64,000 nucleotides of DNA from Bacteroidales bacterium (GTDB lineage: Bacteria > Bacteroidota > Bacteroidia > Bacteroidales > UBA932): NCBI GenBank assembly GCA_017550655.1, contig JAFZOK010000018.1:1-64000 (forward strand), written 5' to 3'. The notes beneath the pieces were generated by a model. It worked only from the letters and a program-made list of their open reading frames with translations, had not been told where the DNA came from and did not search any database. Within the stretch, counting starts at the first letter, position 1, and the number at the start of each line of letters is the position of its first letter. Made by a program: the position numbers and the translations under genes. Shown here in pieces: positions 46,022-63,882 of this stretch.

Positions 46022-47257
46022 ATGAAAAGGATAATAATAGCATTGGCTATATTGCTGGCCCTCCCTTTCTCAGCGATATCGCAGAGCAAATTTGCGGTAA
46101 ATCCCGAGATATATAATTTTACTGAGGTATTCATGGCGGATTCTCCTTTCCGCCTTGGAATTTTAGGAAAGGAATACAAGAGACTCCAGATATATTACGA
46201 GTCTGTAACAAGGCAATCATCAGATACTTACAGGGTTAAAGGCTACTCTAACGCAGCCGGCAATGTATGCCCGTTCGAGGGAACAATCAAGATTGTTTCC
46301 ATCACCACCCAGAACCCGGAGGAATTTGAGGCAGACCATTCTGTCTATCTTCTCAAGGCTTCCTACAGTTTCAAGGAAACCGGCGGAATAGGCACCGGAA
46401 CTTTCTCCGGTACAGCAGATTTTGATTTCTGGATTCACAACAAAACCCCGTTGATTGAGGATGGTATGTTAGGTGCAGACGGCTACTGTAACAGCCAGTA
46501 CACGGGTGTGTGGACCTCAGACAAGACCAAGACAAAGAAGATTGCCAACTGGGGCTCCTGCCGTATTCCTGATTGCGGAGACCTTGATCAGGGCGTAGGG
46601 GAATTCATACCAAGCGAAAAGTACCACGCCAAGGGCTGGGCGGATTACTTCAATTCCATCTATGGCAAAACCGATGAAACCAGGGCCAATGCCTTCTTCA
46701 GCGAAAGCTCCAGATGGTGGGTCAAGACAGATCCTATACTTGTTTTCAAGCAGACTCCTAAACCTGTGATCAGCGTTTACAGGAAATCTGCAAAAAATGT
46801 CACCACACCAGGCGCACTTATCCAGACCCTTAGCCTCAAATCAGATGTTATGCCCGAATACAGGGACATCAACGATGACGGCTGTCTGGAAGTCTTCCAG
46901 GTCTGCGACGACGGCCTTATGTTTGTCTGGAGTCCTAAGGACGGCAAGTTCTATAACGTTCCTTCCTACAACTTTGTAAAGTACAGGGGCAACCTCTGCT
47001 ATTATAAAGAGATCAGGAAGTTTGTCACCACCCACTACGACAATGACACCCAGGCTCATTACTTCTATATGTACTATTATAGTAGAGGAAACGATCCTTC
47101 CCAGGACGCCATTGTATTTGAAGGCAGCGTAACTGAAAAGGACGGCATCTGGACAGAACTCAACCAGTACGGCCAAATTCTCCACAACAAGGTCAACACC
47201 CCGGAGAAACTCTCCAAGGTCTGGAATGACTACATCCGCCTGTCCATGGCCCTGTAA
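46022..47257 (+). CDS. Exported protein of a tandem paralogous pair (copy 2)
   Basis: A 411-aa paralogue of the preceding gene over its whole length: KFAVNPEIYNFTEV, FRLGILGKEYKRLQIYY, NWGSCRIPDCGDLDQGVGEF (the same block) and YRDINDDGCLEVF in place of YQDINFDGYRDL. Its signal peptide ends ISQ and lacks a lipobox cysteine, so this copy is soluble whereas copy 1 is lipid-anchored. They are 18 bases apart on one strand. Family and role are not recognised. Confidence 0.75.
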   Translation: MKRIIIALAILLALPFSAISQSKFAVNPEIYNFTEVFMADSPFRLGILGKEYKRLQIYYESVTRQSSDTYRVKGYSNAAGNVCPFEGTIKIVSITTQNPEEFEADHSVYLLKASYSFKETGGIGTGTFSGTADFDFWIHNKTPLIEDGMLGADGYCNSQYTGVWTSDKTKTKKIANWGSCRIPDCGDLDQGVGEFIPSEKYHAKGWADYFNSIYGKTDETRANAFFSESSRWWVKTDPILVFKQTPKPVISVYRKSAKNVTTPGALIQTLSLKSDVMPEYRDINDDGCLEVFQVCDDGLMFVWSPKDGKFYNVPSYNFVKYRGNLCYYKEIRKFVTTHYDNDTQAHYFYMYYYSRGNDPSQDAIVFEGSVTEKDGIWTELNQYGQILHNKVNTPEKLSKVWNDYIRLSMAL

Positions 47258-47285
47258 CACCATCCTTACTTGGCAAATCAGAAGA

Positions 47286-47453
47286 TTATTCAGACCATTT
47301 TGCTAGCGTCAGCAAAATGGTCTGAAATACTTTGTCCCAGTACATTATCACTCGGCTGAAATTCACGCTCCTTACAGCCCCTTCTCTTGCTTTGTCGATA
47401 ATTCCCTTTATCTCCCCGACAAAACCCTCTTTAATGGTCTTCACTTCTTCCAT
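47286..47453 (-). pseudogene. Truncated DUF1016 N-terminus
   Basis: A 55-aa reading frame starting MEEVKTIKEGFVGEIKGI and continuing IDKAREGAVRSVNFSRVIMYWD resembles the beginning of DUF1016/YhcG_N proteins (helical pattern with AR...A...VN...YW). It then runs into a 16-bp inverted repeat and stops, whereas full proteins are 300-400 aa. It has its own copy of the TAGATTTG promoter cassette 20 bases upstream. It appears to be the remains of a second DUF1016 gene; a translated small peptide cannot be excluded. Confidence 0.6.
47289..47326. repeat. Perfect 16-bp inverted repeat
   Basis: Arms 47289-47304 and 47311-47326 (TTCAGACCATTTTGCT and its exact complement) flank a 6-base loop. No T-run follows on either strand, so it is not a standard intrinsic terminator. 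It forms the broken end of the DUF1016 fragment. Confidence 0.85.
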
Positions 47454-47472
47454 AACAATTCTTTCACTCCCG

Positions 47473-47527
47473 CAAATCTACCACCTCATTTACCCACCCC
47501 GGACAAAGATTTTGACGATTCCGGAAA
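47473..47527 (-). promoter_or_regulatory. Promoter cassette copy R1 (shortened)
   Basis: On the minus strand: a 39-base block (complement of 47489-47527) identical to one at 48824-48862, then a TAGATTTG -7 box (complement of 47473-47480). Compared with copy R2 about 30 bases are missing, removing most of the GGTAAA-N-TTTACC palindrome and the normally spaced TTTG. It precedes the DUF1016 fragment. Confidence 0.75.
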
Positions 47528-47546
47528 TTCCCGTACAGTCCTGGAA

Positions 47547-48734
47547 TTATATCTTTATCAAGGTCTTCTTCATAAGCCGTTTTTTCTCCAGCAATTCTTT
47601 TTGCAATACCTTAACTCTCTCTGTCAATTGCTCTCTGCTTGGAAGTGCATCCTTGATTTTAATGTTGTTATAGGTTGCCACTCCCATAGGTGTTTCAATA
47701 CCTTTGAAAGCCCATTGCACCTCAGTCGTATTTAGATCAGAGCAAACCAGAAGTCCAATTGTTGGGTTATCATCGGCTTGTTTCAATACATTGTCAATAG
47801 CATTCACATAAAAATTCAGTTTTCCGGCATATTCTGGTTGAAATGGTTTTGCTTTTAGTTCACAGACTATATAACAGCGCAAACGTATGTGATAGAAGAG
47901 TAAGTCTATTCTACGAGCATGACCACCGGCAATAAATTCCTTTTGCCTGCCTATAAAGGCAAAACCGTTTCCCATTTCGAGTAATAAATTTGTGATGTTC
48001 TTTGTAAGGGCTTCTTCCAGTTCGGTTTCATCGTATATCTCATGTTCAACTGCAGCAAATCCAAAATCATAGTTCTCCTTTAGCACTTCTTGAGCAAGTT
48101 TGCTGTGTGGTGCTGGTAAAAGATTAGAAAAGTTATTGATAATCTTTCCTTTGTGTAGATACAAGTCGGCTTTGATACAATTGACAAGTGCGGCTCTACT
48201 TAATCCATGCTCTATAGTTTGGTTAATATAGAACAAAGCTTCTTCAATGGTTTTACATTTCGTTATTATCTCAATATGATGCCTCCATGGAACCTTAGCA
48301 AATGGCATCGGCAATTCTCCACCAACTTGGTGGAGTTTTTGTCCACTTTCATTTTGAGGTACTTTGAATTCTCCAATAAGTCGTTGGAGAATTGTTGGAT
48401 TCATTTTGGCAGATGTGTAAAACAAATACCATTTCTTCATATACCACAGATTTGAAGTAGAAAACCCATCAGTGGGAAATTCCCGCCTTAAATCAAGACT
48501 GATCTGTTCCACGACACCTGATCCCCAACGTTCCTCTGCTTTCTTTTGAACAAGATCCCTTCCAAGTTCCCAGTTAAATATCAGTTTTTCCGCATTTACC
48601 CTAACAGCGGCCTTAATCTGTGCCGAGCGGTACCTGTGTTTTACATCAGCTATCCATTTTGCATAATCCGCATCAATGTGTATGTCGTGAGACTTAACAA
48701 CATAAGGCTTCTCAATAGCTTCTGTTCCTTTCAT
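47547..48734 (-). CDS. DUF1016/YhcG-like PDDEXK nuclease domain protein
   Basis: A 395-aa protein. Residues about 25-170 match the helical YhcG N-domain (AVRVNAEKLIFNWELGRDLV, LSLDLRREFP-like QISLDLRREFPT, FSTSNLWYMKKWY). Residues about 215-360 match the YhcG C-terminal PD-(D/E)XK nuclease: GHARRIDLLFYH with the catalytic Asp and YIVCELK with the E-x-K pair (about 273-300). The nuclease residues are intact. Role unproven; such genes are common in mobile and defence regions. It is transcribed away from the BREX operon from cassette R2 and flanked by the 39-base repeats. Confidence 0.9.
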   Translation of the reverse strand: MKGTEAIEKPYVVKSHDIHIDADYAKWIADVKHRYRSAQIKAAVRVNAEKLIFNWELGRDLVQKKAEERWGSGVVEQISLDLRREFPTDGFSTSNLWYMKKWYLFYTSAKMNPTILQRLIGEFKVPQNESGQKLHQVGGELPMPFAKVPWRHHIEIITKCKTIEEALFYINQTIEHGLSRAALVNCIKADLYLHKGKIINNFSNLLPAPHSKLAQEVLKENYDFGFAAVEHEIYDETELEEALTKNITNLLLEMGNGFAFIGRQKEFIAGGHARRIDLLFYHIRLRCYIVCELKAKPFQPEYAGKLNFYVNAIDNVLKQADDNPTIGLLVCSDLNTTEVQWAFKGIETPMGVATYNNIKIKDALPSREQLTERVKVLQKELLEKKRLMKKTLIKI

Positions 48735-48777
48735 TCTTACCCTTTATTTATCTTGAATCCACACGGTTTCTCTTCCG

Positions 48778-48862
48778 CAAATCTAACCACCTAACTCCCT
48801 CTCCACCAAACCATCCGGTAAATTTTACCCACCCCGGACAAAGATTTTGACGATTCCGGAAA
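48778..48862 (-). promoter_or_regulatory. Promoter-operator cassette copy R2
   Basis: Minus-strand promoter for the DUF1016 gene: TTTG (complement of 48807-48810), 21 nt, TAGATTTG (complement of 48778-48785), about 44 bases before the ATG. Just upstream of the -33 site is the palindrome GGTAAA-T-TTTACC (48817-48829), a likely repressor site, then the 39-base block shared with R1. Confidence 0.75.
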
Positions 48863-48907
48863 AACATCAACAATTCCAGGATAGTATTAGCTAATCTTGG
48901 AAAAGTA

Positions 48908-48938
48908 TTGACAAACAACGGTAATTTTGTTATATTTG
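48908..48938 (+). promoter_or_regulatory. Promoter for the structured leader and BREX operon
   Basis: TTG (48908-48910), 20 nt, TATATTTG (48931-48938): an exact -7 box at consensus spacing. The start would be near 48945, about 310 bases before the brxP ATG. Confidence 0.7.
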
Positions 48939-48944
48939 TTTGTT

Positions 48945-49250
48945 GGGCAATTATCAGCGATGCCATTGTTCCCTCAGGCCTCTCCTGAATTCCCCACTGG
49001 TTCTTGAAAAAAGAACCAAGACATATTGATAAGAAAGCGTTTAACGCTATTCTCCGATAGTGAATCTGGACAATTCAAGCAAAGGAAGAATAGAGCGAGA
49101 CGCTCGCACTGGCTATATCTCGGGCCTCGGTCCGCGCTATAGTGGAAGTGCGGGCTATTTCTCATTCACTTTGCTGGCAGTCCAGAACCAGGTTCGCCTG
49201 GTGCCTACTATCTGAATGAGTTAATTGGCTCGCACTTTCTTTTTTTGTTT
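48945..49250 (+). ncRNA. Structured RNA leader upstream of the BREX operon
   Basis: The non-coding stretch between its promoter and brxP contains many local stems: TCAGG/CCTGA (48974-48978 and 48984-48988), GGTTCTT/AAGAACC (48999-49005 and 49011-49017), CTAT/ATAG (49047-49050 and 49057-49060), GCGAG/CTCGC (49095-49099 and 49103-49107), and a two-part hairpin GCACT...CTATA/TATAG...AGTGC (49106-49151). It ends in a long hairpin and T-run. It may be an attenuator/riboswitch-like leader, or a free small RNA with its own promoter and terminator (a 6S-like RNA is one option). I cannot assign a class. Confidence 0.6.
49146..49250 (+). terminator. Long terminator-like hairpin just before brxP
   Basis: Nested pairs AAGTGCGGGC/GCTCGCACTT (49146-49155 and 49228-49237, one G-U), CTCATTCA/TGAATGAG (49161-49168 and 49213-49220), GGCA/TGCC (49176-49179 and 49202-49205), CCAGG/CCTGG closed by a TTCG tetraloop (49188-49201). 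A seven-T run (49240-49246) within a T-rich tract follows. Its first arm overlaps the AGTGC arm (49147-49151) of an alternative upstream hairpin. Confidence 0.75.
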
Positions 49251-49254
49251 TATT

Positions 49255-51831
49255 ATGTCTTCGGGCCAGACAACAAGTAAGATTGTGTTTAAGGTAGTCT
49301 GGGACAAATACAACACAGTGAGACTTACGATGGCCTCAATGGGGGAAGCATTAAATGTTTCTCCCCGTCCGGTTTTCTATGAGGAGCTTAATCTTCTAGG
49401 TTTAGATAAGAAAGGATGGAGATATCCTGAAAGCAAGAAACCTCTAATGTGGGCGTGCGACCGCAGATATTTTTACAATGGTGAACTGGTAATGGAGGTG
49501 AAGGGTGGTAATATTTTCGATGCTCCCACGGTCAATATCATCCCCGGTAAAGAGTATCTTGATATCACTCCAGTTGACATGGACTACCTCCACCAAAGGA
49601 ATGAAGATTCACTCTTCCTTTTGGAACACGAGGCGATGGATTTCATTAACCAGACCTACCGGAGATACAAAGGATTGAAGACGGTAACAGAAAAAAATCC
49701 GGATTTGGATTTTCAACAGCTGGCTGACCATCTTGAAAAAAAGACAAAGGAAAAACACGTTGTTGTCAAGGAAGACTGCGATAGTTTTGACATAATGCCA
49801 CTATCCGAGGCCGAGGCTCAAGGCAAGGCACCTATTCTTAGCAGTAAGGTCGATCTCTTTATTTCTTCTTTCTCCGGCGGTAAAGATTCGCAGGTTGTCC
49901 TTGACCTCTGTGCCAGAGTTATTCCAAGCGAGGACTTTTTGGTGATATATTCTGATACGGGATATGAGTTACCTACCTCGTTACTATTATATGAGGAAAC
50001 TAAAAAATATTACAGTCAAGCTTACCCAACACTTCGTTTTTACACAGCCAAGAACCATCAATCCGTTCTTCAGTATTGGGATAAAATGGGGGCTCCAAGC
50101 CGGATTCACAGATGGTGTTGTAGTGTGATGAAATCCGCTCCGCTAAACAGATTAATTAAAGATATATATGGACAAGGGAAACAGCCTACTTCAGTTCTCG
50201 TTGATGGTGTTCGAGCTGAAGAGAGTGTGAGCCGTGCTTCTCGGTCAAGGATTGGGAAGAATGTTAAGCACAATAATGTAATTAACATTAGCCCGATACT
50301 CGATTGGAACTCAACAGAAGTCTATCTATACCTCTTATTAAGAGACTTACCTTTCAATCGTTCATATAGACATGGTTTATCCAGGGTTGGCTGTGTTATA
50401 TGCCCTTATTCTTCTGGTTGGAGCGAGGATTTATGTGGTCAATTGTATCCGGAAACAGTAGAACCATTTGTTGATAGGCTTCGCAGTACACTTTCTTCAG
50501 CAAAAGTATCTGGAGTGGAGAACTACATAAAAGAGGGAAAATGGAAAATGAGGGCTGGAGGCAGGGATGTCCCGTGTGAAGCGAGCATGAATATCGTATC
50601 AGTCACACCAGACCTTCAGTTCACAATACAAATGCCCAGAGAAAACATTCTCACTTGGATGAGAGTGCTAGGAGAAAACAAATATTACGAAGACGAGAAA
50701 GGTGAGATATCGGGAGATATTAGATATCAAAAGACACTGATTAGATTCTCTTTGACAGACTCTAGAGACGGGAATATAGTATTAACTTTCTATAATGTCG
50801 GCAATGACATAATAATGAGTAGCCGGATAAAGAAGGTCGTTTATAAGTCTGTGTACTGTATACATTGCGAGGTGTGTGAGGTTGAATGCCCAACAGGGGC
50901 GTTGTCGGTTGCTCCAAGGGTTAGAATCGATAAGGACAAATGTGTTCATTGCATGAAATGCCTTGATTTTGACGGAAAGGGATGTTGGTCAGCCAGTTCT
51001 GTGAGTGCATCATTCGGAGAAACAATCAATAAGCCAAATATGAAATCAAGTAAATCAGGAATCAACCGCTATAACGATGGCATGGGACTAAGGGATATTT
51101 GGTTAAGTAAATATTTCAGCTCAAGCGACTCGTTTTTTGATAACGATGATCACGGGCTTAATATTCGTTATCAGATACCTCCTTTCACAAATTGGATTAG
51201 GGAGGCTTGTATTCTGAATTCCCAAGACAAGTCTATTTCTGAGACAGGAAAACTACTTCAATTCATATATCAAACAAGGCCGAAGGTGGTTTGGGAAATC
51301 ATTTTCATAAACCTTTGTGAAAATTCCGAGATTTGTAGTTGGTTCTTTTCTAGCGTCGGATTTAACAGATTTTATACCCGTGCCGAACTGGATGTGATTC
51401 TTCAAGAATCATATCCAGAACTCAAGGATAGAACTCTCAAGAATCCTCTTAATTCTCTGATTAATACTTTCAAGGAGAGTCCACTCGGTACTCAAATGAA
51501 AATAGCAAATCCTGTCATACAGGATAAGAAAGTCGGAATAAAGAGGGAGCCATATAATGAGATTTCTTCTATTGCAGTTGCCTATTCTCTTTACAAATAC
51601 GCTGAAAAGCAGGGGCGTAGGTCGCTTACTGTATCCGAGTTCTACAACGACAGTCAGACTGAGGGGATCTATCGCCAATTCGGAGTAGACCGAGTGTCTC
51701 TCGAAAAGATTCTCCGCTCGTTGCAAGAGGAATCGCACCAAGTCTTGACAGTCGAACTCAATATGGGACTCGATAACATAAACCTTCGTGATGACCTCAC
51801 CTCATTCGATGTGTTAAAAGCTCTGTTATAG
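49255..51831 (+). CDS. brxP: BrxP: PAPS-reductase/ferredoxin/DUF4007 protein of type 4 BREX
   Basis: An 858-aa multidomain protein. After a roughly 190-aa N-terminal region comes a PAPS reductase-like ATP-pyrophosphatase domain with the P-loop SFSGGKDSQ (about 205-213), HRWCCSVMKSAP and GCVICPY. A 4Fe-4S ferredoxin domain follows (CIHCEVCEVECPTGAL and CVHCMKCLDFDGKGC, about 534-575). The C-terminus (about 610-858) looks like DUF4007. This is the order expected for BrxP. By analogy with DndC the enzyme may handle activated sulfur for DNA modification; that is inference. The ATG at 49255 lies just after the leader T-run; an earlier in-frame start would fall inside the hairpin. brxC follows after 4 bases. 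Confidence 0.9.
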   Translation: MSSGQTTSKIVFKVVWDKYNTVRLTMASMGEALNVSPRPVFYEELNLLGLDKKGWRYPESKKPLMWACDRRYFYNGELVMEVKGGNIFDAPTVNIIPGKEYLDITPVDMDYLHQRNEDSLFLLEHEAMDFINQTYRRYKGLKTVTEKNPDLDFQQLADHLEKKTKEKHVVVKEDCDSFDIMPLSEAEAQGKAPILSSKVDLFISSFSGGKDSQVVLDLCARVIPSEDFLVIYSDTGYELPTSLLLYEETKKYYSQAYPTLRFYTAKNHQSVLQYWDKMGAPSRIHRWCCSVMKSAPLNRLIKDIYGQGKQPTSVLVDGVRAEESVSRASRSRIGKNVKHNNVINISPILDWNSTEVYLYLLLRDLPFNRSYRHGLSRVGCVICPYSSGWSEDLCGQLYPETVEPFVDRLRSTLSSAKVSGVENYIKEGKWKMRAGGRDVPCEASMNIVSVTPDLQFTIQMPRENILTWMRVLGENKYYEDEKGEISGDIRYQKTLIRFSLTDSRDGNIVLTFYNVGNDIIMSSRIKKVVYKSVYCIHCEVCEVECPTGALSVAPRVRIDKDKCVHCMKCLDFDGKGCWSASSVSASFGETINKPNMKSSKSGINRYNDGMGLRDIWLSKYFSSSDSFFDNDDHGLNIRYQIPPFTNWIREACILNSQDKSISETGKLLQFIYQTRPKVVWEIIFINLCENSEICSWFFSSVGFNRFYTRAELDVILQESYPELKDRTLKNPLNSLINTFKESPLGTQMKIANPVIQDKKVGIKREPYNEISSIAVAYSLYKYAEKQGRRSLTVSEFYNDSQTEGIYRQFGVDRVSLEKILRSLQEESHQVLTVELNMGLDNINLRDDLTSFDVLKALL

Positions 51832-51835
51832 TCTT

Positions 51836-54800
51836 ATGGAAAAGTATTCTGATTACTTAGAACTTCGTAACTTCCTCCCAGTTTATGATATAACTGATGA
51901 ACAGGAAGGTCATTGGACATCATTTATCCCTACAAAACAATTCTCTGAGCTTCTAAGCAAGTCGCTTACAGCCTTGACCTCTTCCGATGTATCCAAACGG
52001 AAGAGCATGTGGGTCAGAGGTACGTTTGGTACGGGAAAGAGCCATGCAAGTGCAGTCATCAAACACTTGCTGTGTGATGACCTCGACTCAATTTCCGGCT
52101 ATCTGAATACGATAGATAATGTCGTAATTCGGGAGAAAATCCGTTCCTTCCGGAAAGAGAAGCGCTTCTTCCCTGTAGTCTTAAAGGGAGTGGAGGGGGC
52201 CTACGATATTCCTCGTTTCTCTCTGTCGCTCCAGAAGTACACAAAGAAAGCTCTTGCGGCTGCCGGATACGGAGATATCGTTGTGGCTTCTGATTATGAG
52301 AATGCTATAGCCTATATTGAGAAGCATCGTCAGATTATCGAGGATGTCATTGAGCAGAATGATTCCTTGAAGATGCTGGCTTCTACTCCGGAAAAAGTGG
52401 TTGCAAAACTCCAAATCAACGATACCGATACCTATCTTGCCCTCGAAGAAGCTCTTGATAGAGTTTATAAAATACACCTAAACTCGGAAGCAGCTACGAT
52501 AAGCGATTGGCTTGTAGAAATTGAAAAAGAGATTGAAGCCAATGGAATAGCAGACGGTATCATTATTTTCTGGGATGAGTTTACTTCTGTCATGGACACC
52601 ATCAAGAGTGACCGAATCAATGTCCTCCAGAACATTGCCGAGAAGTCTCAGAACAATAACTTGTTCCTCTTCTTGATTTCTCATAGAGCAGAAGCACAAA
52701 GCTCTGACAGCAAGGGGAAAGATATTACCAAGATGAGTGATCGCTTTGAGAATGTGGAATACAAGATGGATGACATTTCCGCATATCTGATTATGCGTCA
52801 CACCTTTGGTCTCAAGGACGGCGTTGAAGAAACGGCTCTTCACATCCTCAAATACAATGGCACGCACAATCTTACCGGTCTCCTTGATTACCTCTGTCCA
52901 TCTAAAAACGAAGAAGAGCAAAACTACATCAGCGACCTGTTCCCGATGCATCCGTATACGGCTTACCTTTGCTCTATTCTTTCCAATCTCATTGGCTCGG
53001 CTAATCGCAGCGTTATCCGGTTTATGAATGATGAGACAGATGGTTTCAAAGCATTTTTGGACAACGAGGCATACTTCGACTCTAAGCAATTAGTTACAGC
53101 CGAATGGCTGTGGGATTTCTTTGAGTCAGAATTCGACAATGATACCCAGTGCAGTATATTCACCAACGTATATCGTACCGAGAGTGTTCACTTGCAAGGA
53201 ATGAGCGACGATTACTTCCGGGTTTTCAAGGCTATCTTGCTGCTCAATGCCCTCCAGACAAAATTCCCAGATGACAGGGCTCCTGAGCGTATTGCCCCGA
53301 ACGACAAGAATCTCGAATATATTTTCCTTGGCGATCGTCTCTACGATAAGCTGCATGTTATTCTGGACTATATAGATCACAACAAGATAGTCGCTCGTAA
53401 TGTTTGGGGAGAGTTCAAGATTTCTGCCACATCTTATAACGCCAACGAGGTGGCTGAAGAGAAGAGCAATCTCTATAGAATGTATAAGACCGCGTTGAGT
53501 ATTCTTGATTATGACGGAGGTAAGAAGAGCGATCTTTTAATTCCTTTCCAAGTGGGTGAATCTGTAATCCGTAAGGTAGAAGTTCAGTTCTACTCGTGCG
53601 AAGATTCTGAGAGTCTTATAAGAAGTAAACTCAAGAAGTTTATATCCGAGAAACCGAATGTTCTACATGTCGGGTTATTCCTTTCAATTACGGAGGAATC
53701 CCGTGATACTATGATAAATAAGGTCAAGGAACTTTCGCTTGAATGTGAGAACTCCATTCTCATTATTCCAGATGAGGTATTTACCAACGATGCCCAAACC
53801 AAGTTCATTGACTTTATTGCTATCTATGCTCTGGCCAAGAGGTATTTTAATGATACACAGGCTTCGGACAGCGAGAAGAGCGCTAAGAAATATATAGAAA
53901 AGTGGGTTCAGCAGATTCTAGCTGGAGCCTATCAACTCTATTTCAGGGGCGATTCATATAGTGATGGTATATTTAAAGATATCGGCAAGTTACTTAATCG
54001 TAAAATTAGTCGACAGATTTTTTTCCATGGTTTGGAAAGTAATAAGAAGCTTCAAAGCTCTGTCCCAATGACATTCTTCAAGAATAAGAATTATCCTGCT
54101 GTTGTTGAAACAATTCTTCAAGCGCAGAATCGTGACCAGCTGATTACATTCACGGGTGAGAATACTCCAATAAAACAAATATTTCAAGAAAATGACACCT
54201 TCCTTGTCCGGGATGATGGTGAACTTACTGAGGCTGCTCTTGCCGGGAATTCATGGCTTGTACAGATTTGCAAGAAGATGGATAAATGTATGGAAGAAGC
54301 ACACAAGAAGTATCAAGATAGATTTTCCCTTTCCGAAATTCTTGCTCAGTTCATGATGCCTCCATACGGATTTTTCCCGAGTAAGGCAAATTGGGCCGCT
54401 CTATCTTATGCCCTCAGAAAGCATAAAGGGGATCTTTTCCAGCCAAGCACATCACAACCTGTATCAAATGAAGGTCTGTCTGATATGATAGTCACGCTTT
54501 TCAAGATGTGGGATGAAGGCAATTCCGAAAGTAGTAATAAACTATTGCTACGCTTTGGCTCACCGGAAGAGAGTAAACTAACTAAGCAGATAGCTGAGTT
54601 CTTCTATTTGCGTGATGTTGTGAATATCAAAGAAATAAAGAGTCTTCACAATGCTCGTTGGGGTGTTCAAGAATTCTGCAAAAAGATATCGAAACAACCT
54701 CTATGGACTTTAAACTATTGCGACAAGGTTTCTCACAATGAGAAATACCTTAAGGCCATCAAGAGTTTAATCAGCTTATTTGAACAGGAGTCTCCGAAGA

Positions 54801-55267
54801 TTGATCGTATCAAAGATATTTCAAATATGCTTGAGTCTCTCAAGCTGGAACTTCCTGTTATTCTAAAAAATCCAGAGAATTACAATCAAGGCTTCATGAA
54901 GTTTGTGGAGAAGATTGAGGAAGAAGATGATGTATCCATTAAGAAGGATTGGTGGGCTGAGCTTGTTGAAGAGCTCTCCATTCTTCAAGAGGAGGTAGCT
55001 TTCCGCAAGGAAAGCGATGTGGAAAATATCATTCTTAAATTCTATAATAGGAAGAGTAAACCTAACGTTACTCCAGACATCCCAAATCCAGTCCGCCCAG
55101 TATCCCCAATCTTTCCTAAACCTGTAATTCCCGAAGATGAGATTACAAAAGCTAAGAGCATTGTAAAGGGGATGAATATGCCTAATATGATGTGGCAGCA
55201 GATGCTACTGGAACTCATCAATGAGCATCCGGCAGTATCTGATTATATTATAAAGTATCTGTCTTAG
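51836..55267 (+). CDS. brxC: BrxC/PglY-type ATPase of BREX
   Basis: An 1143-aa P-loop ATPase, the large core component shared by BREX systems. It has Walker A GTFGTGKSHAS (about 60-70), IIFWDEFTSVM as Walker B (about 241-251), and SHRAE, then a long mostly helical region without recognisable catalytic motifs and a proline-rich linker (TPDIPNPVRPVSPIFP, about 1080-1095) before the C-terminus. Length is typical for the family. It lies between brxP and pglZ with gaps of 3-4 bases, so the operon is tightly coupled. Codon use is AT-richer than in the flanking housekeeping genes. Confidence 0.92.
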   Translation: MEKYSDYLELRNFLPVYDITDEQEGHWTSFIPTKQFSELLSKSLTALTSSDVSKRKSMWVRGTFGTGKSHASAVIKHLLCDDLDSISGYLNTIDNVVIREKIRSFRKEKRFFPVVLKGVEGAYDIPRFSLSLQKYTKKALAAAGYGDIVVASDYENAIAYIEKHRQIIEDVIEQNDSLKMLASTPEKVVAKLQINDTDTYLALEEALDRVYKIHLNSEAATISDWLVEIEKEIEANGIADGIIIFWDEFTSVMDTIKSDRINVLQNIAEKSQNNNLFLFLISHRAEAQSSDSKGKDITKMSDRFENVEYKMDDISAYLIMRHTFGLKDGVEETALHILKYNGTHNLTGLLDYLCPSKNEEEQNYISDLFPMHPYTAYLCSILSNLIGSANRSVIRFMNDETDGFKAFLDNEAYFDSKQLVTAEWLWDFFESEFDNDTQCSIFTNVYRTESVHLQGMSDDYFRVFKAILLLNALQTKFPDDRAPERIAPNDKNLEYIFLGDRLYDKLHVILDYIDHNKIVARNVWGEFKISATSYNANEVAEEKSNLYRMYKTALSILDYDGGKKSDLLIPFQVGESVIRKVEVQFYSCEDSESLIRSKLKKFISEKPNVLHVGLFLSITEESRDTMINKVKELSLECENSILIIPDEVFTNDAQTKFIDFIAIYALAKRYFNDTQASDSEKSAKKYIEKWVQQILAGAYQLYFRGDSYSDGIFKDIGKLLNRKISRQIFFHGLESNKKLQSSVPMTFFKNKNYPAVVETILQAQNRDQLITFTGENTPIKQIFQENDTFLVRDDGELTEAALAGNSWLVQICKKMDKCMEEAHKKYQDRFSLSEILAQFMMPPYGFFPSKANWAALSYALRKHKGDLFQPSTSQPVSNEGLSDMIVTLFKMWDEGNSESSNKLLLRFGSPEESKLTKQIAEFFYLRDVVNIKEIKSLHNARWGVQEFCKKISKQPLWTLNYCDKVSHNEKYLKAIKSLISLFEQESPKIDRIKDISNMLESLKLELPVILKNPENYNQGFMKFVEKIEEEDDVSIKKDWWAELVEELSILQEEVAFRKESDVENIILKFYNRKSKPNVTPDIPNPVRPVSPIFPKPVIPEDEITKAKSIVKGMNMPNMMWQQMLLELINEHPAVSDYIIKYLS

Positions 55268-55270
55268 CAT

Positions 55271-57703
55271 ATGGAAGCATCAGAGAAAATAAATAAATAT
55301 CAGTCATTTGAGGAGTTGGTAGATGCTATAAAGGAGGATATCAAAACCCGTGATTTCCTGTCAAGAAGGTATGGCGTAAGGTTTATCATGCTTAATAGCT
55401 TTGACATTCTTCGAAAACTTGTGCTGGAACTACAGAATCTTGATGTGGAAATGGTGACGCTTGATGGCCTTATTTCATATGAAGAGCCAGATAGTTGGAT
55501 TTCAACTGACACTCTCAAGGAGAGAGTGTTCAGTTGTACAAAACCTTCTCTAATAACTCCTTTTTCTGAATTAGTGCGTTTCTATCCAGATGAACAGTTC
55601 CGTGGTTTTTTTAGCGAAATAATCCTTTCCGAACGCAGTAAAACAAACCGTATATACATTCCCATTATTGGCCTTGAGAATCGTTTCATAGATTTTTTGT
55701 CTCATTTTGGACGTTTGAGTGAGAGTGCTCCTATATGGCAGTATAATGAACCAGAACCTCAGTCTGTAGAAGTCTATGTTATTAAAAAGTATAAGGATTT
55801 GAATCCTACAGTTGTCGGGAAGCGTTGCCACTTGCGCACTCTCTCCGAATGGCTGCAATTCTGGAAGGAAGCACCGAAAGAGAAGATTATTTGCTCTTCT
55901 CTGCCCATTATTGTAAATCATAAAAATGCTCGTCCAGACAATATCTTCAAATTTCAGCCTATCACAAATGCGTATGATTACATAACGCAGTTTATGGATG
56001 TAAACTTGGACTTCCTTCATAATCCAGAGGATGACAAGTATCTTGATATCCTGCTTGCTAGTATAGTGGAGAAGGCAAAGGAGAATTTCAGTCTTTGGGA
56101 TTATGTTCGGAATCGCTTCAATATGGCCAGACTTACGGCAAATGCGGCTCTTCGAGTATGGGGGCAGGAGGAGCGTTCTGCTTACGACCGTTGGCTCATC
56201 AAAAAGTATCTTGAACATCTCCCAGAGCTCAAATCCCATGAATATCTGTTGACTTGTCTAGCGGAAACATCCGATTTGGAGAATCCATACGACTTGTTTG
56301 TTCAGCTGGCCACATACATTTTCTATTTTCCGGCAAATGCCCAGAAGTATCATGACGAACGTGAACAGCTGATGAAAGCACTTTCTTCTGAGTTTAAGAA
56401 AAATGTATCAATTGTAAAGCAGGAGTGGATTAGAGATCAAATAGTAGAGTTAGGTCAGACATCCACGGATACTGCTGTTTTCTTCTGCACCGGTACATTC
56501 GATTTTGAGAAGGAGTACTTGATGGGTATTTTTGCCACCCATGAAAAGGAAGCCTGCGCAAAAACTGCGCTTGAATTGTATCCCGATTTAAAGGCATATG
56601 TTTCAGAGGCGATTCCGTCTAACTTTGTCAAGAAAGGAGGGGTGACACCTCAATGGGTGAATGACTATTTTATCGCATATCGGCATGCCAAAATCAAAGA
56701 TTACCTTACTGGTGAAGTGCGGACAACGGTAAAGGAAATGAATGCCAGCAAGGATGTATTTTATAGCTGGTATTTCAATTTTGTCAACACTAAAGAACGA
56801 TTACGCTCAATTTCTGCGGACAAGCGGCTCAAGCCTGATAAGATATATTGGATTGACGGATTGGGCGCAGAGTACCTGCCATTGATAAAGAGCCTTGTTG
56901 AGGGTTCTGAATTCCAGATTGCTTATTCCGAATATACACGGTCAAATCTTCCCACAGAGACTACCCTAAATGGATTCTATGAGGAGGAAGTCAATAAAAG
57001 AGATGGGATTGATAAGTTAGGTCACGAAGGAGGACAATACAAGCCCTATGGCACACTTGTCAGAGAGATTGATATGATTCGGGAATATGTGCAGGAGATA
57101 ATCAAGAGTAATCAAGGAACTCCTACAAATATAGCTATCGTGTCCGACCACGGCATGAGTGCCCTTTCAAGAAAAGCCGACTCCCGTAAACTTGAAGGAA
57201 AATACGAGCACGAGGGTCGTTTTATTGAGGTTCAGAAGGATAAATTCGCTGATGATGACTTCTTTTTTACCCATCAGAATGAAGATGACGGCAAGTATTA
57301 TAGGGTCGCTTTGACTCACTCTTCGCTTTCTAAAAAGCCCACTCATGAAGTGCATGGAGGTGCTCTTCCTGAGGAAGTTATTGTACCTTTTATTATTCTG
57401 ACGAATAAAACTACCTCCAAGAAGCAGGATTTTCATATCATCCCGGTTAACGATAAAGTTGCTGTTTCTGAAGCTTTGGTGGAGGTGACAATAATACCAC
57501 AGCCAACAGCTGCCTTTATCTCATTCAATGGGGTTGAGTATGAGATGAAACGAAAAAACACACAGTGGACGGCAAAGATTGATGGTGTGAGCGAAGGAAT
57601 CAATAACTTTATAATTATTCCAGAGGCTGGAGAGCCCCAGAACATCTCGATTGAGTTCTTTGGCTTTGGAGCTGGAAGCATTGATGACGAATTTGATTTA
57701 TAA
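55271..57703 (+). CDS. pglZ: PglZ phosphatase-domain protein of BREX
   Basis: An 810-aa protein. The N-terminal half (about 1-480) is helical and poorly conserved. The PglZ domain of the alkaline phosphatase superfamily follows, with IYWIDGLGAEYL (about 524-535), AIVSDHGMSAL (about 619-629) and HEVHGGALPEEVIVPFI (about 695-711), carrying the metal-binding Asp and His expected. A beta-rich tail ends the protein. PglZ is the hallmark BREX component and is required for defence, although its substrate is not known. brxL follows after 3 bases. Confidence 0.93.
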   Translation: MEASEKINKYQSFEELVDAIKEDIKTRDFLSRRYGVRFIMLNSFDILRKLVLELQNLDVEMVTLDGLISYEEPDSWISTDTLKERVFSCTKPSLITPFSELVRFYPDEQFRGFFSEIILSERSKTNRIYIPIIGLENRFIDFLSHFGRLSESAPIWQYNEPEPQSVEVYVIKKYKDLNPTVVGKRCHLRTLSEWLQFWKEAPKEKIICSSLPIIVNHKNARPDNIFKFQPITNAYDYITQFMDVNLDFLHNPEDDKYLDILLASIVEKAKENFSLWDYVRNRFNMARLTANAALRVWGQEERSAYDRWLIKKYLEHLPELKSHEYLLTCLAETSDLENPYDLFVQLATYIFYFPANAQKYHDEREQLMKALSSEFKKNVSIVKQEWIRDQIVELGQTSTDTAVFFCTGTFDFEKEYLMGIFATHEKEACAKTALELYPDLKAYVSEAIPSNFVKKGGVTPQWVNDYFIAYRHAKIKDYLTGEVRTTVKEMNASKDVFYSWYFNFVNTKERLRSISADKRLKPDKIYWIDGLGAEYLPLIKSLVEGSEFQIAYSEYTRSNLPTETTLNGFYEEEVNKRDGIDKLGHEGGQYKPYGTLVREIDMIREYVQEIIKSNQGTPTNIAIVSDHGMSALSRKADSRKLEGKYEHEGRFIEVQKDKFADDDFFFTHQNEDDGKYYRVALTHSSLSKKPTHEVHGGALPEEVIVPFIILTNKTTSKKQDFHIIPVNDKVAVSEALVEVTIIPQPTAAFISFNGVEYEMKRKNTQWTAKIDGVSEGINNFIIIPEAGEPQNISIEFFGFGAGSIDDEFDL

Positions 57704-57706
57704 TAT

Positions 57707-59182
57707 ATGAGCGAATTAGGACGCAAAATTCAGCAAGTCTTCGGGTCGGCTGCGGTATATAAGAATCCGGCCAATTACGATGTGTTCACTGGAAGAAATC
57801 TTCCTTCATTCATAAAGGATTACTTAATTTCTACCCATGTAGCTGTCGATGGAACATTCTATCGGGAAAAACTGATACGTTTCCTCGATTCGCATATTCC
57901 TGCCGACAATAATTCGGTGAAGTCTCGTCTGCTCCAAGGTGAGGCATTAACCCTGCTGACAAGGTTTATTGTATCCACAAATATTAGTAAGGGTCTCATA
58001 CAGTTCCAGATCCCAGACATGGGTATCAAGTTTGGTGATACAGAAATTCCTCGTTATCTCGTTGAGGAATATCCTAATGACCTTATTGATGGAGAACGTT
58101 GGGGTATTTTGAAGATTGTCTACATGGCTCCAGAAAATGGGAAATCTGGTGGACACATTGTGATGGTAAAGTTTAAGCCTTTCCGTCCTTTGGAGCACAT
58201 AGATATTAATTTCTTTCGCGAGTGTCGTAAGAAGTTCACCACGGATGAGTGGATTGATGTCCTTATTTCTGCGATGGAATATAATCCGGACTCTTTTGAG
58301 GGCAAAACCCAAAAGTTGGAGTTTCTAACTAGACTACTTCCATTCATTGAACCTAGGCTGAATATGATAGAACTTGCCCCTAAAGGCACGGGAAAATCGT
58401 ATGTGTTCAATAATCTATCAAAATTCGTCTGGCTTATTAGCGGAGGAAAAATATCCCGAGCCAAGTTGTTCTACGACAAGCAGAAACAGTTACCGGGTAT
58501 AATGCGTTACTATGATGCCGTTGCTTTTGATGAAATACAAACTATCAGCTTTACAGATGGAACGGAAATGCAGTCTTTTTTGAAAGCTTATCTTGAGGAT
58601 GGCAAGACAAAGGTTGATAATTATGAGTTTATGTCCGAATGTGGTTTGATGCTACTGGGAAATATTAAACTATCTGATGCTGGCTATCCGATGAGCAATC
58701 GCTATTTTGAAGAGTTGCCGGAGAATTTTAGGGAGTCAGCTTTGCTCGACCGATTCCACGGTTTCATTGAGGGATGGTTCCTTCCACGTGTTAAGAATAA
58801 TATGATTCTTAAGGATTGGACTATCAACGTTGAATTTTTCTCAGAGATTATGCACCAACTTCGTACAGCTCCTGAATACAGCGTAATTGTCAATCGGTCT
58901 ATCGAATATCCAGAAGATGCCGATACACGTCATCTAAAGGCGGTAAAAAAAATAGCCACCGCATATTTGAAACTCCTCTATCCTCATATTACTTCTGTGA
59001 ATGATTTGCCTAAAGAAGAATTTGAAATGTATTGTCTCAATCCTGCTATTCATAGAAGGGATATCATTCGCCAGCAGTGTAACAACATAGACTTTGAGCC
59101 GACCTATGCTAAGCCTATGCCCGATATAAGGGTTAAACAGCAGCCTATGGTTACATCTCCAGAAGACCTTGTCAACCTCTAA
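57707..59182 (+). CDS. brxL: BrxL AAA+ ATPase of BREX (short form)
   Basis: A 491-aa protein with the BrxL N-terminal region and an AAA+ core: Walker A LAPKGTGKSYVF (about 222-233), FDEIQTISFTDGTEM (about 274-288) and MLLGNIKLSDAG. In type 1 systems BrxL is about 680 aa and ends in a Lon-like protease domain; here the protein stops after the ATPase part and a short tail (NNIDFEPTYAKPMPDIRVK), so no protease domain is visible. A decayed second copy of that tail lies at 60401-60481. Last gene of the four-gene operon. Confidence 0.88.
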   Translation: MSELGRKIQQVFGSAAVYKNPANYDVFTGRNLPSFIKDYLISTHVAVDGTFYREKLIRFLDSHIPADNNSVKSRLLQGEALTLLTRFIVSTNISKGLIQFQIPDMGIKFGDTEIPRYLVEEYPNDLIDGERWGILKIVYMAPENGKSGGHIVMVKFKPFRPLEHIDINFFRECRKKFTTDEWIDVLISAMEYNPDSFEGKTQKLEFLTRLLPFIEPRLNMIELAPKGTGKSYVFNNLSKFVWLISGGKISRAKLFYDKQKQLPGIMRYYDAVAFDEIQTISFTDGTEMQSFLKAYLEDGKTKVDNYEFMSECGLMLLGNIKLSDAGYPMSNRYFEELPENFRESALLDRFHGFIEGWFLPRVKNNMILKDWTINVEFFSEIMHQLRTAPEYSVIVNRSIEYPEDADTRHLKAVKKIATAYLKLLYPHITSVNDLPKEEFEMYCLNPAIHRRDIIRQQCNNIDFEPTYAKPMPDIRVKQQPMVTSPEDLVNL

Positions 59183-59236
59183 TATGTTATTGTTTTTAAA
59201 AAGCGTGTTCCTAAATAGAAAAATTTAAGACATTAT

Positions 59237-60370
59237 ATGAAGAAAAAGATACTTTTTTTGCTTGCTATAATATTTTGTAATGCAGGTATTTATGCACAAA
59301 ATGCCGTTCATTTTGCATTTGATACCAATGGCCCAATGGGAGAATGCTTGTTTCCTCAAGACGCAAGAGGACAGGTGAGTTATACAGGTATAGTAGAAGT
59401 GTCTGGAAGTGCTTCTGAAATAATGGATGCATTGTTAGATTATGTTGCAACTCAAAAAGTTAAGATAGGTTTTGATTTCAAAGAGCAGGCTAAATCTCCA
59501 AAAAGTTGTGTGTTTTCAATTAAATGTCCAGTAGGTAAGCAATTGAGATCTATAACTGTTATGGGAAGTCCTGTTTATTCTGCACTTAAGGATGCAAGTG
59601 AGATTTCTTTTACTTGTTTGCTGGAAGTTCTTGATGGGAAGTTTAAATATACTCTGAAGGATTTTGTGACTAAGAGAAATATGCTTCCAGGAGAAGCGAA
59701 GAATGATGGTTCCCCGAATATTATTCACTGGCAGAGAGTTAACAGTTTGATAAAGGAAAGAGATTTATATTTGGCAAAACACAATCCTGAGAAACGTTCT
59801 ACAAGGGAAGAGATGTATGAATATGACTCAAAAATAAAGTTTGAGCATACTTTATATGTTGAAGAGAATAAGAAAGTCAATCAGTTCGTGAAAGGATTGG
59901 AATCGTTGAAAATAGATAAAGGTAGTGATTTTGAGTTGGATATAGAGGCAAAGATATATGAGAAGGAGGACGAGTATGAAGTGCTAGACTTATCTGGATA
60001 TAGAGGCAACCTGCTAGAAAAAGGCAATAGTGTATTTGTTTGTGGAGATGAAATATATGAAATGGCCGGAGCTGCAGAATTAGTAAAACAGATAAGTATT
60101 GATTCTCTTTGGAATACTGTTACTTTTCCTGAGCAAGCTCACTTTATTATTGAATATCATGTTAATACTGTTGGAAGCGATAAGGCATACATAGTTGTAC
60201 GAAGCCGAGATGGAAAAATATCTTATACAAGTCCTAAACGCTCTACAAGTGAATCATTTGAAGATAATCGATGGCAAGCTAATTCCTTTTATAAAAATCT
60301 GTACTCAAAGATTAAACGTTTAGAGGAGGGGAAAGGTGACAGGGATTTGGAAAAGTTCATAATCAAATAA
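59237..60370 (+). CDS. Exported DUF4468-like protein within the BREX island
   Basis: A 377-aa protein with a signal peptide ending IYAQ (about 21). The mature N-terminus (GQVSYTGIVEVSGSASEIMD...YVATQK) has the TBP-like pattern of DUF4468, and later segments (YTLKDFVTKRNMLPG, ISIDSLWNTVTFPEQAHFIIEY) look like repeated beta-alpha units. Being exported, it is unlikely to act directly with the cytoplasmic BREX proteins. It sits between brxL and a duplicated brxL tail, which suggests insertion into the operon. It is very AT-rich compared with the chromosome around it. Confidence 0.65.
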   Translation: MKKKILFLLAIIFCNAGIYAQNAVHFAFDTNGPMGECLFPQDARGQVSYTGIVEVSGSASEIMDALLDYVATQKVKIGFDFKEQAKSPKSCVFSIKCPVGKQLRSITVMGSPVYSALKDASEISFTCLLEVLDGKFKYTLKDFVTKRNMLPGEAKNDGSPNIIHWQRVNSLIKERDLYLAKHNPEKRSTREEMYEYDSKIKFEHTLYVEENKKVNQFVKGLESLKIDKGSDFELDIEAKIYEKEDEYEVLDLSGYRGNLLEKGNSVFVCGDEIYEMAGAAELVKQISIDSLWNTVTFPEQAHFIIEYHVNTVGSDKAYIVVRSRDGKISYTSPKRSTSESFEDNRWQANSFYKNLYSKIKRLEEGKGDRDLEKFIIK

Positions 60371-60400
60371 ATTTTCATCGCTGAGAATAGTCTCCAAATT

Positions 60401-60481
60401 CTCTAATAATGCCACAATATAGACTTTGAACCAACTTTTGCGAAGCCAATGCCACAAATTATAGTAAAAGCCAATGTTTGA
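60401..60481 (+). pseudogene. Decayed duplicate of the brxL 3' end
   Basis: Read in the brxL frame, 60419-60481 encodes IDFEPTFAKPMPQIIVKANV and a stop, matching the brxL C-terminus IDFEPTYAKPMPDIRVK closely. Homology extends weakly back to about 60401, but two in-frame TAA codons break it. Its TGA overlaps the ATG of the next gene (60474). Confidence 0.8.
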
Positions 60482-60827
60482 GAACTATACAAATAAGATA
60501 CTTGCCGATCTTGATATTCTTCTCAGGATGTATAAATATGATGAGTTAGAGAGAAATGGGGGAGATATTTACAAGATTGAGTGTTTTCTGAATAAGGTGT
60601 TGGATCATGTAGATATCCTAAAGAGTAATCTTCCTTATGAGGAACATATGTCTGAAGATGTTGAGGATGAGGTAGTATTATGTGAGAAACTAATGGATAT
60701 GGCACTGAAGTGGGTGGATATGGTTAAGCCGTTATATTACTTGGATAATTCTTTTGATAGATTCCATGTTGAGCCGGAATTTGAGGAGTCATACTTCAAT
60801 GGCAAGATAAATAAACGGAAAAGATAA
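60474..60827 (+). CDS. Small acidic helical protein, possible ancestral BREX-operon gene
   Basis: A 117-aa protein beginning MFENYTNKILADLDILLRMY; strongly helical and acidic, with a basic last patch (NGKINKRKR). No signal peptide or known motif. Its ATG overlaps the stop of the decayed brxL tail by 8 bases, so it was probably once translationally coupled directly to brxL, before the exported protein gene was inserted. That makes a role linked to BREX plausible, but no function is recognised. Confidence 0.6.
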   Translation: MFENYTNKILADLDILLRMYKYDELERNGGDIYKIECFLNKVLDHVDILKSNLPYEEHMSEDVEDEVVLCEKLMDMALKWVDMVKPLYYLDNSFDRFHVEPEFEESYFNGKINKRKR

Positions 60828-60948
60828 CCTGTTGCGTGCGGATATGAATAAGGAGAAGAATAAACAGGGCGCATTGTAAATATTTCATCGCTGAGGAAAC
60901 TCTTTCCGGTTAGGGCGTTTCTTTTGAAAATAGTTGTTCATTTCCGTA

Positions 60949-61020
60949 CGATTCCAGAATCGCACAGGGTAAATTTTACCGGATGGTTTGGAAATGAGGA
61001 GGATGATGGGGTAGATTTGC
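60949..61020 (+). promoter_or_regulatory. Promoter-operator cassette copy R3
   Basis: Plus-strand counterpart of R2: the palindrome CGATTC-CA-GAATCG (60949-60962), then GGTAAA-T-TTTACC (60968-60980), TTTG (60987-60990), 21 nt and TAGATTTG (61012-61019). The -33/-7 spacing equals that of R2. It drives the gene starting at 61050. Confidence 0.75.
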
Positions 61021-61049
61021 GGGATGTCACTAATGTTACATGGTTGGGA

Positions 61050-61670
61050 ATGGAAAAACAGGAGAAACAGGAGAAACAAGACACACAGGAGAAACAAGAC
61101 ACACAGGAGAAACAAGACACACAGGGCAATCCGATAAATAATGAAGGCAAGTTGGTTATCTGTGAAGTTCAGAGTGTAGATGAAATAACAGATTTAGATT
61201 TTGTTAATGGGGAGAGAAATATAGGTCTTCCTAAACTTTCCGACCAATTAGCGGATGCTTTGCAAACGAATGGCAGAAGGGTTGTTATTAAGCGTAATAT
61301 ATTTATTAAAAACGCTTTATCTCATCCGGATTTAACTCCATCTATGAGCAGGGATATTCTTCGTCAAGCATTATATGAGACGAATATTATTGGTGCAACA
61401 CAACCAATAGCTAAACCAGATTATAGGATTGTAGTTCATACTGGGGCTTTGAATTCGATAGTTGTTGTGGATTTATACGCGGGAAAGGAAAATATAGAGG
61501 TTGTCGGATGGAGACAAGTAGATGAAAGTGGGTGGAAAAAAATGAAAAGACAAGCTGCTCGTGAGGACGGCCAGCTCCTCATACTTTCTCCCATAACTGG
61601 GTTGGCGGCAGACCTTTCCACTCTTCCGGGCAACTTGTCTTCTGACGGCAAAGATAATCGGAAAAAGTGA
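61050..61670 (+). CDS. Island gene with possible PBECR-like nuclease domain
   Basis: A 206-aa protein. Residues 2-26 are a repetitive EKQDTQ tract. The middle (NIGLPKLSDQLADALQTNGRRVVIK, here split as NIGLPKLSDQLADAL and NGRRVVIKRNIFIKNAL) is helical. The C-terminal part DYRIVVHTGALNSIVVVDLY...NIEVVGWRQV...REDGQLLILSP resembles the phage-type barnase/EndoU/ColicinE5-D/RelE-like (PBECR) domains from memory; this is tentative. The ATG at 61050 is chosen because the TAGATTTG promoter at 61012 excludes earlier starts. It is transcribed from cassette R3. Confidence 0.55.
   Translation: MEKQEKQEKQDTQEKQDTQEKQDTQGNPINNEGKLVICEVQSVDEITDLDFVNGERNIGLPKLSDQLADALQTNGRRVVIKRNIFIKNALSHPDLTPSMSRDILRQALYETNIIGATQPIAKPDYRIVVHTGALNSIVVVDLYAGKENIEVVGWRQVDESGWKKMKRQAAREDGQLLILSPITGLAADLSTLPGNLSSDGKDNRKK
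61071..61124 (+). repeat. Three perfect 18-base tandem repeats
   Basis: GAGAAACAAGACACACAG occurs three times without change (61071-61088, 61089-61106, 61107-61124), encoding EKQDTQ in the N-terminus of the 61050 gene. Perfect identity indicates recent expansion. Confidence 0.95.
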
Positions 61671-61696
61671 AGTACACAATAGTTTATCATTACTAA

Positions 61697-61731
61697 AAAG
61701 AAATACTCGCCCAGATTGAGCGAGTTTCTTT
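61697..61731. terminator. Bidirectional terminator between the island and htpG
   Basis: AAAGAAA (61697-61703), a two-base bulge, CTCGC (61706-61710), loop, GCGAG (61720-61724), TTTCTTT (61725-61731). The A/T arms give a U-rich 3' side on both strands, fitting the convergent genes on either side. Confidence 0.75.
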
Positions 61732-61752
61732 CATAATGTGGTGTTGAATAAG

Positions 61753-63807: not shown

Positions 63808-63833
63808 ATTATTGAATTTTATAAGTTCTTGTA

Positions 63834-63878
63834 ATAAAAATACTCCCGATGGTGTTTCAATCTTTGTACCATCGGGAG
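63834..63878 (-). terminator. Terminator of the gene upstream of htpG
   Basis: A perfect 11-bp stem CTCCCGATGGT (63843-63853) and ACCATCGGGAG (63868-63878). On the minus strand it is followed by a T-rich tract (complement of 63834-63842). It separates htpG from the partial gene at the window edge. Confidence 0.85.
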
Positions 63879-63882
63879 AGAG

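Follow-up and report, generated by a model that had tools for sequence, protein, structure and literature searches.

The DNA considered here, called the window, is a stretch of 64,000 nucleotides (nt) from a Bacteroidales bacterium of the UBA932 lineage (assembly GCA_017550655.1, contig JAFZOK010000018.1), in which four plus-strand open reading frames (ORFs), brxP, brxC, pglZ and brxL, follow one another in tandem with gaps of 3-4 nt in the ORF call. Judged from its sequence, this operon is a complete, intact bacteriophage exclusion (BREX) system of type 4, a system type already known. Directly upstream of brxP lies the apparently new element, a predicted structured leader RNA of about 217 nt, which recurs in front of unrelated genes in other Bacteroidales genomes. 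The features of the locus are collected in Table 1.

Table 1. Features of the leader RNA, the operon behind it and the rest of the site, in window coordinates
Feature	Position	Strand	Basis or remark
Promoter-like site, Bacteroidota type	48908-48938	+	TTG at 48908-48910, TATATTTG at 48931-48938; from sequence
Predicted structured leader RNA, model R1 family	49031-49247	+	cmsearch 205 bits; no Rfam match
5' strands of covarying helices	49056-49084	+	P1 49056-49061, P2 49065-49071, P4 49079-49084
Hairpin-like GAATCTGGACAATTC enclosing the P2 5' strand	49062-49076	+	
Upstream copy GCTCGCACT, alternative partner of the terminator 5' strand	49102-49110	+	direct repeat D3 with 49228-49236
Terminator 5' strand (T5')	49148-49155	+	T helix covariation
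PKa, P4' and P2'	49161-49186	+	PKa 49161-49167, P4' 49169-49174, P2' 49180-49186; covariation
P1' and PKb	49207-49220	+	P1' 49207-49212, PKb 49214-49220; covariation
Terminator 3' strand (T3') and U-run	49228-49247	+	T3' at 49228-49235
Small hairpin (G-rich loop) after the RNA and before the start codon	49256-49272	+	sequence
brxP	49285-51831	+	PAPS-reductase, 4Fe-4S and DUF4007; GTG start probable from homologues, ATG 49255 possible
brxC (ATPase)	51836-55267	+	1143 aa; PDLC02472 479.7 bits, weaker SspC matches
pglZ, BREX-4 type	55271-57703	+	810 aa; NF033445 513.4 bits
brxL	57707-59182	+	491 aa; PADLOC, NCBIfam and Pfam matches
Rest of variable cargo	59237-61670	+	377-aa protein with signal-like N-terminus, 117-aa ORF, 248-aa LPD13 protein
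htpG-like gene, right flank of the site	61753-63897	-	NF003555 616.3 bits; 85% over 2241 nt with locus L042

All four proteins of the operon match BREX profiles. In PADLOC, BrxP reaches 838.5 bits against PDLC02510 over nearly its full length, BrxC matches PDLC02472, PglZ scores 237.6 bits against PDLC02542 and BrxL 657.3 bits against PDLC02505; in NCBIfam, PglZ exceeds the cut-off of 140 bits for BREX_PglZ_4 and BrxL scores 457.2 bits against TIGR02688 (cut-off 329.3). Pfam recognizes PAPS_reduct, Fer4 and DUF4007 in BrxP, the last at 29.6 bits against a cut-off of 27, together with BrxL_ATPase and BrxL_N in BrxL. A first-pass annotation of the window had proposed a type 4 BREX operon of four consecutive plus-strand genes 3-4 nt apart in the order brxP-brxC-pglZ-brxL, and had singled out the 1143-residue and 810-residue proteins as those whose profile matches should decide. 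The ORF coordinates confirm the layout, the profiles bear out identity and order, with the PglZ profile NF033445 being specific to BREX type 4, gene order and content fit the type assignment, and the two proteins in question match PDLC02472 (BrxC) and PDLC02542 and NF033445 (PglZ). The annotation had also expected both DUF4007 and the PglZ family PF08665 in Pfam. The former is found; the 1143-residue and 810-residue proteins gave no match to any Pfam family, PglZ included, at E<=0.001. This formally counts against its reading, and it is set aside because the BREX-4-specific PglZ profile matches. The PglX methyltransferase that it reported as missing was likewise not detected by Pfam, PADLOC or NCBIfam among the ten proteins scanned between 46022 and 63897. 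The annotation is silent on the leader RNA that precedes the operon.

In the ORF list, brxP begins at 49225 or 49255 and ends at 51831. Its relatives at five other loci (L002-L006) align only from residue 21, where those proteins start with MFK or MYK, so the true start is probably the GTG at 49285; the ATG at 49255 overlaps the edge of the small hairpin. Full-length BrxP is carried by three of the 39 genomes of the genus, the window's own included, and some BrxP match at E<=0.001 appears in 38 of the 39, all short except for those three. A relative with 99% query coverage and 35% identity is also found in NZ_CP118754, a plasmid record of the archaeon Methanosphaera sp. ISO3-F5.

For the chemistry of the system, PMC11931770 counts brxPCZL (BREX type 4) with the gene families responsible for DNA phosphorothioate synthesis, and PMC12839542 treats type 4 BREX as a phosphorothioation system, analyses 457 taxa, and describes BrxC, the PAPS-reductase and DUF4007 as homologous to SspC, SspD and SspB. 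With these two sources, the suggestion that self DNA is marked through the sulfur chemistry of BrxP moves beyond the analogy on which it was first based; for the present operon it would hold by homology. Gene order, spacing, profiles and the BrxP domain layout (PAPS-reductase, ferredoxin-like, DUF4007) are the same in the window as in BREX type 4. The window BrxP also matches SspD and DndC profiles over its PAPS-reductase part, and BrxC matches SspC weakly, but both score far higher on BREX profiles, and the window, unlike the Ssp and Dnd systems, has PglZ and BrxL, both BREX proteins. According to PMC12839542, a cysteine desulfurase accompanies BREX type 4 in 255 of 457 taxa and is not universal. 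The window differs from the cases that have one, as no cysteine desulfurase was detected among the ten scanned neighbours (46022-63897), a feature that is optional in this type. Aminotran_5, the family that holds the cysteine desulfurases, is represented elsewhere in the genome, with a best score of 401.5 bits. By homology and published work, BrxP and BrxC would install phosphorothioate marks on host DNA, with sulfur probably supplied by a cysteine desulfurase encoded outside the operon, and PglZ and BrxL may act against unmarked phage DNA. The operon itself thus adds one more case of a known phosphorothioation-based type; it differs from six other BrxP loci in standing behind the leader RNA.

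Inverted repeats occur in the 300 nt preceding brxP, and the segment 48935-49250 folds better than its shuffles on the plus strand (z=-4.8). From eight copies of the element, a first consensus fold was derived in which 24 of 58 pairs were compensated, and these copies were used to build the covariance model R1; the window, which scores 205 bits, is one of its training sequences. R1 matches 23 of the 39 genomes of the genus at E<=0.01, in 45 places and up to five per genome, eight of these genomes matching by construction, having supplied training sequences. Under stricter filters, which make the following counts lower bounds, matches occur in at least 126 of 299 genomes and 19 of 25 genera of the family (E<=1e-4), in at least 47 of 295 genomes and 37 of 184 genera of the order (E<=1e-6), and phylum-wide in at least 4 of 296 genomes, namely the window's own and three of the same class. 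In genome G009 the RNA likewise stands before brxP, with 94% identity at the DNA level against 59% for the BrxP protein, and in genome G029 an RNA at 94% identity is present in a genome without full BrxP. R1 has no match at six other BrxP loci (L002-L007). An RNA component specific to BREX type 4 is ruled out by these six loci and by the unrelated genes that the RNA precedes elsewhere. A more distant brxP, in G001, has upstream of it an element of similar architecture and very different sequence (L048, 13025-13265, minus strand), which folds with z=-6.0 and scores only 33.9 bits against R1.

For the analyses below, 124 instances were assembled, comprising 44 of the 45 genus places (the second tandem copy in G006 was dropped) and 80 picked instances, 40 from the family and 40 from the order, mainly better-scoring ones, with some near contig ends skipped. 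Tests of the 3' end used 118 of them, after removal of a truncated instance (L042) and five near-identical 3' ends. Helices P1, P2, P4 and a fourth helix were evaluated in 35 model-aligned sequences, an alignment fitted to a model that already holds these helices: 94.5% of 788 cells are paired, compared with 62.4% after shuffling, all 23 counted pairs show double, compensatory changes, and the covariation score is 0.823, compared with 0.219 for shuffled and at most 0.098 for slid controls. For one of the five measures, that of further pair types, a value as high as the observed one came up in 15 of 500 shuffles.

The terminator (T) helix and the PK helix are not part of R1 and were evaluated in a separate alignment of the 118 3' ends. 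The T helix is paired in 90.2% of 933 cells (strand-swap shuffles at most 83.1%, slid controls at most 65.0%), with double changes in 8 of 8 pairs, and the PK helix in 83.1% of 645 cells (at most 76.6% and 50.0%, respectively); each exceeds all 300 strand-swap shuffles. Chance structure is ruled out by this covariation against slid and shuffled controls. G-U cells outnumber A-C cells by 71 to 17 in T and by 63 to 18 in PK, the polarity of a plus-strand RNA. Taken one by one, 103 of the 118 instances have a T helix that scores better than at least 95% of shuffles, and at least seven T residues occur within the 9 nt after T3' in 94, with five or fewer in 14. Both terminator strands also have alternative partners that pass the same 95% threshold: P0, in which the partner is the 5' end of the RNA, in 86 of 118 instances, and the upstream copy pairing with the terminator strand in 66. 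T and at least one alternative partner both pass it in 92 of 118, counted at sequence level. Short complementary stretches, noted by eye, flank P2 on both strands, and the core of the RNA may therefore also form two kissing hairpins.

Upstream of the RNA, the motif TAnnTT(T/C)G, which resembles the Bacteroidota promoter consensus, lies within 130 nt in 116 of 121 instances (three being too near a contig end). It is found in 7 of 115 control stretches taken from within cargo, and in 20 of 121 cases when the upstream stretch is read on its reverse strand. Downstream, three of the 124 instances had no called ORF; among the other 121, the ORF is on the same strand in 111, and the start codon lies at a median of +45 nt. 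With ORFs called mechanically and the start codon placed after the RNA by a rule that was applied likewise to random points, the start falls 20-80 nt after the RNA in 83 of 121 instances and in 42 of 314 random control points of the same loci, of which 225 were followed by a same-strand ORF. A free-standing small RNA that acts in trans and neighbours accessory genes by chance would account for the element having its own promoter motif and a terminator-like end, and its rod shape resembles 6S; that a same-strand start codon follows so closely in many unrelated loci nevertheless favours action in cis, leaving this alternative improbable.

The genes behind the RNA are diverse. Among the matches listed, the 110 first genes scanned include BspA-type LRR (6), Por_Secre_tail (6), helicases (3-4) and PAPS_reduct (2), and the 118 later genes include Big_2 (5), FHA (4), Tubulin_2 (3), fimbrillin (3) and DUF1156 (2), with BACON also among the cargo matches; 3 of 113 first genes (L083, L137, L180) and 47 of 165 later genes were left out, and as the families are the 25 commonest of each listing, an enrichment for defence is not computable from them. 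A leader dedicated to defence is unsupported, the cargo being of mixed Pfam families and the upstream control genes also having PADLOC hits, and no riboswitch ligand is suggested by so mixed a cargo. Direct scans identified a complete Hma set (HmaA, HmaB, HmaC) at L040, type I methyltransferase and specificity genes at L100, a type III methyltransferase at L153 and a Snf2-type helicase at L170. By eye, the operons behind the RNA at L043, L046 and L079 encode proteins that look like tubulin-like and vWA-like systems of a conflict or signalling kind.

Pairwise comparison indicates that the window, L040 and L042 occupy one chromosomal site, with upstream synteny in all three and the htpG flank common to the window and L042. 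The cargo there is BREX type 4 in the window, Hma in L040, and a truncated RNA with other genes in L042. Hma (helicase, methylase, ATPase; PADLOC HmaABC), which in G029 holds this site behind the 94% identical RNA, is an unrelated defence machinery and hence an alternative cargo, not a relative of BREX type 4. Homology between the window and L040 begins about 256 nt ahead of the RNA and stops at its 3' end, and the pairs L153/L170 and L160/L161 diverge at the RNA end or about 34 nt after it. The converse case is L041, where the BREX-4 cargo of the window is found again but no homology was detected in the flanks; the shared segment opens 11-12 nt ahead of the RNA and closes with the end of brxL. 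At L042 (9905-10083), the first ~109 nt of the RNA are joined to sequence that forms the far end of the cargo in L040, which makes L042 a probable deletion product or scar at the same site.

Such break points could be expected of a DNA recombination site, an attC-like folded single strand used for cassette exchange, in which the promoter and gene positions would be secondary. In several pairs, the cargo changes near the 3' end and the flanks near the 5' end, and translations inspected by eye show recombinase-like genes near some loci. The G-U excess, with its plus-strand RNA polarity, and the promoter motif in 116 of 121 instances speak against it, the right ends share no sequence in the few cargos compared, and homologous recombination within a conserved leader gives the same break points; this explanation is quite improbable.

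Conserved structure, plus-strand polarity, a promoter motif, a short distance to the gene, unrelated modules and swapping at one site are thus observed. The explanation preferred here, with a probability of roughly 60%, is that a complete type 4 BREX stands behind a cis-acting attenuator leader that serves interchangeable modules. That the RNA is a real structured leader acting in cis appears highly probable from these data; termination as its mode of action is somewhat favoured. The layout would be a promoter, a leader with competing rod and terminator folds, and then the module. The terminator would consist of T5', the 3' strand and the U-run; its strands could instead pair with the upstream copy and the 5' end of the RNA, within a rod-shaped structure that P1, P2 and P4 hold together. 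Some signal would then shift the balance between the folds and let the polymerase into the module, so that a single leader could connect different accessory modules to the same regulatory input.

Several observations weigh against this explanation. The minus strand of 48935-49250 also folds better than its shuffles (z=-3.1), and the frequencies given above for the U-run, P0 and the upstream-copy helix are biased upward because these elements are part of R1. The cargo is not specifically defence, control genes upstream having PADLOC hits as well. In the window the two nested folds are nearly equal, at -79.9 kcal/mol with T and -79.2 kcal/mol for the rod, a balance that speaks for the attenuator; across the 74 instances scored, however, (44 of the 118 were unscored), the rod is ahead in 67 and T in 6, with one tie, by a median of 9.3 kcal/mol. 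Since the rod is energetically favoured, the terminator may be a minor or kinetic product, or T may coexist with P1, P2 and P4 as a pseudoknot. Moreover, a pure terminator does not need the small hairpin beyond the U-run. Similar hairpins were seen by eye between U-run and start codon in many instances, with a weak energy signal (mean z -0.44 compared with 0.01; z<-2 in 9 compared with 4 of 116).

The predominance of the rod, in which the 5' end closes on the 3' end, the small hairpin before the start codon and the poor U-run of some instances would all suit a structured leader that acts after transcription, through mRNA stability, translation, or the binding of a protein or small RNA, and not through termination. 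Against this stand the T helix and U-run, conserved with covariation in most instances, and the alternative partners of T3', the usual layout of an attenuator, so that a post-transcriptional leader is considered rather unlikely.

Beyond the single locus, it is tentatively suggested that a Bacteroidales-wide class of bistable leader RNAs might use one shared signal to gate a scattered regulon of interchangeable modules, with BREX-4, Hma, restriction-modification, tubulin-like and surface-protein operons among them. In JUMPstart/ops with RfaH, too, one leader stands before diverse accessory operons that were acquired horizontally. By a similar logic, the present RNA might recruit a dedicated NusG paralogue in the manner of RfaH/ops or UpxY, and two NusG proteins are present in G006 and G013, which have four RNA matches each. 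However, a single NusG was detected in G009 (five matches), in G029 (four) and in the window genome, and none in G023 (two), all of them incomplete drafts; on balance the counts lean against such recruitment, which is considered highly improbable. The leader also differs from JUMPstart/ops and RfaH in that several genomes carrying the RNA have one detected NusG; in structure the comparison extends as far as Rfam, no family of which matches the leader. PMC2864571 lists JUMPstart in a table.

If such a regulon exists, any module landing behind the leader would be wired at once into the response of the host. This bears on how costly defence and surface modules stay silent until needed and how new ones come under control at once. 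A leader that remains constant while the module behind it changes, as with BREX-4 and Hma at a single site, would answer both questions directly. The leader RNA may also serve as a handle for uncharacterised defence and conflict operons, by searching downstream of it.

Regarding known RNAs, a scan of 40000-64000 with Rfam 15 at E<=1 placed no family over the leader RNA and returned one sub-threshold snoRNA match at 59780-59889, and at E<=0.5 Rfam had no match on the leader RNA in 11 further loci; a known Rfam RNA is ruled out by these scans. PMC8040213 reports 3161 structured RNA candidates from the human microbiome, including leader-like and terminator-like ones from Bacteroidetes. Within the sources accessible to the literature search, no specific description of this leader RNA was found, although it may be among those candidates. 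The RNA family, having no Rfam match, appears to be the new part of the locus. The DUF805 RNA (RF03081), a cis-regulatory Rfam family of Bacteroidota, also takes a leader position before genes, but its model matches beside, not on, the leader RNA. At L176, two DUF805 RNAs (1104-1169 and 2068-2136) each lie just before a called ORF, the first of them between the U-run of the leader and the start codon, placing two leader families in series.

In the remainder of the window cargo (59237-61670), no protein matches a BREX profile. The protein at the right cargo end (60924-61670) is a large polyvalent protein-associated one, LPD13, with a short repeat near its N-terminal part. Upstream, a YhcG/DUF1016 nuclease-family gene (PADLOC PDC-S02; 47547-48734, minus strand) adjoins the leader RNA, and PDC-S02 matches occur in 4 of the 105 upstream genes scanned, the window's included. 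A phage- or plasmid-borne element is not supported by the searches made, in which three exact patterns had no match in IMG/VR and two queries returned no plasmid match. Two unannotated human-gut contigs labelled 'Bacteriophage sp.', MT838511.1 and MT836914.1, carry sequence that matches one leader RNA at 72% and 77% identity and could be bacterial DNA in a virome. Two copies of the RNA stand in close tandem, with about 150-170 nt between them, at L083 (8151-8334 and 8486-8681) and on contig C8 of genome G585 (72494-72695 and 72863-73059).

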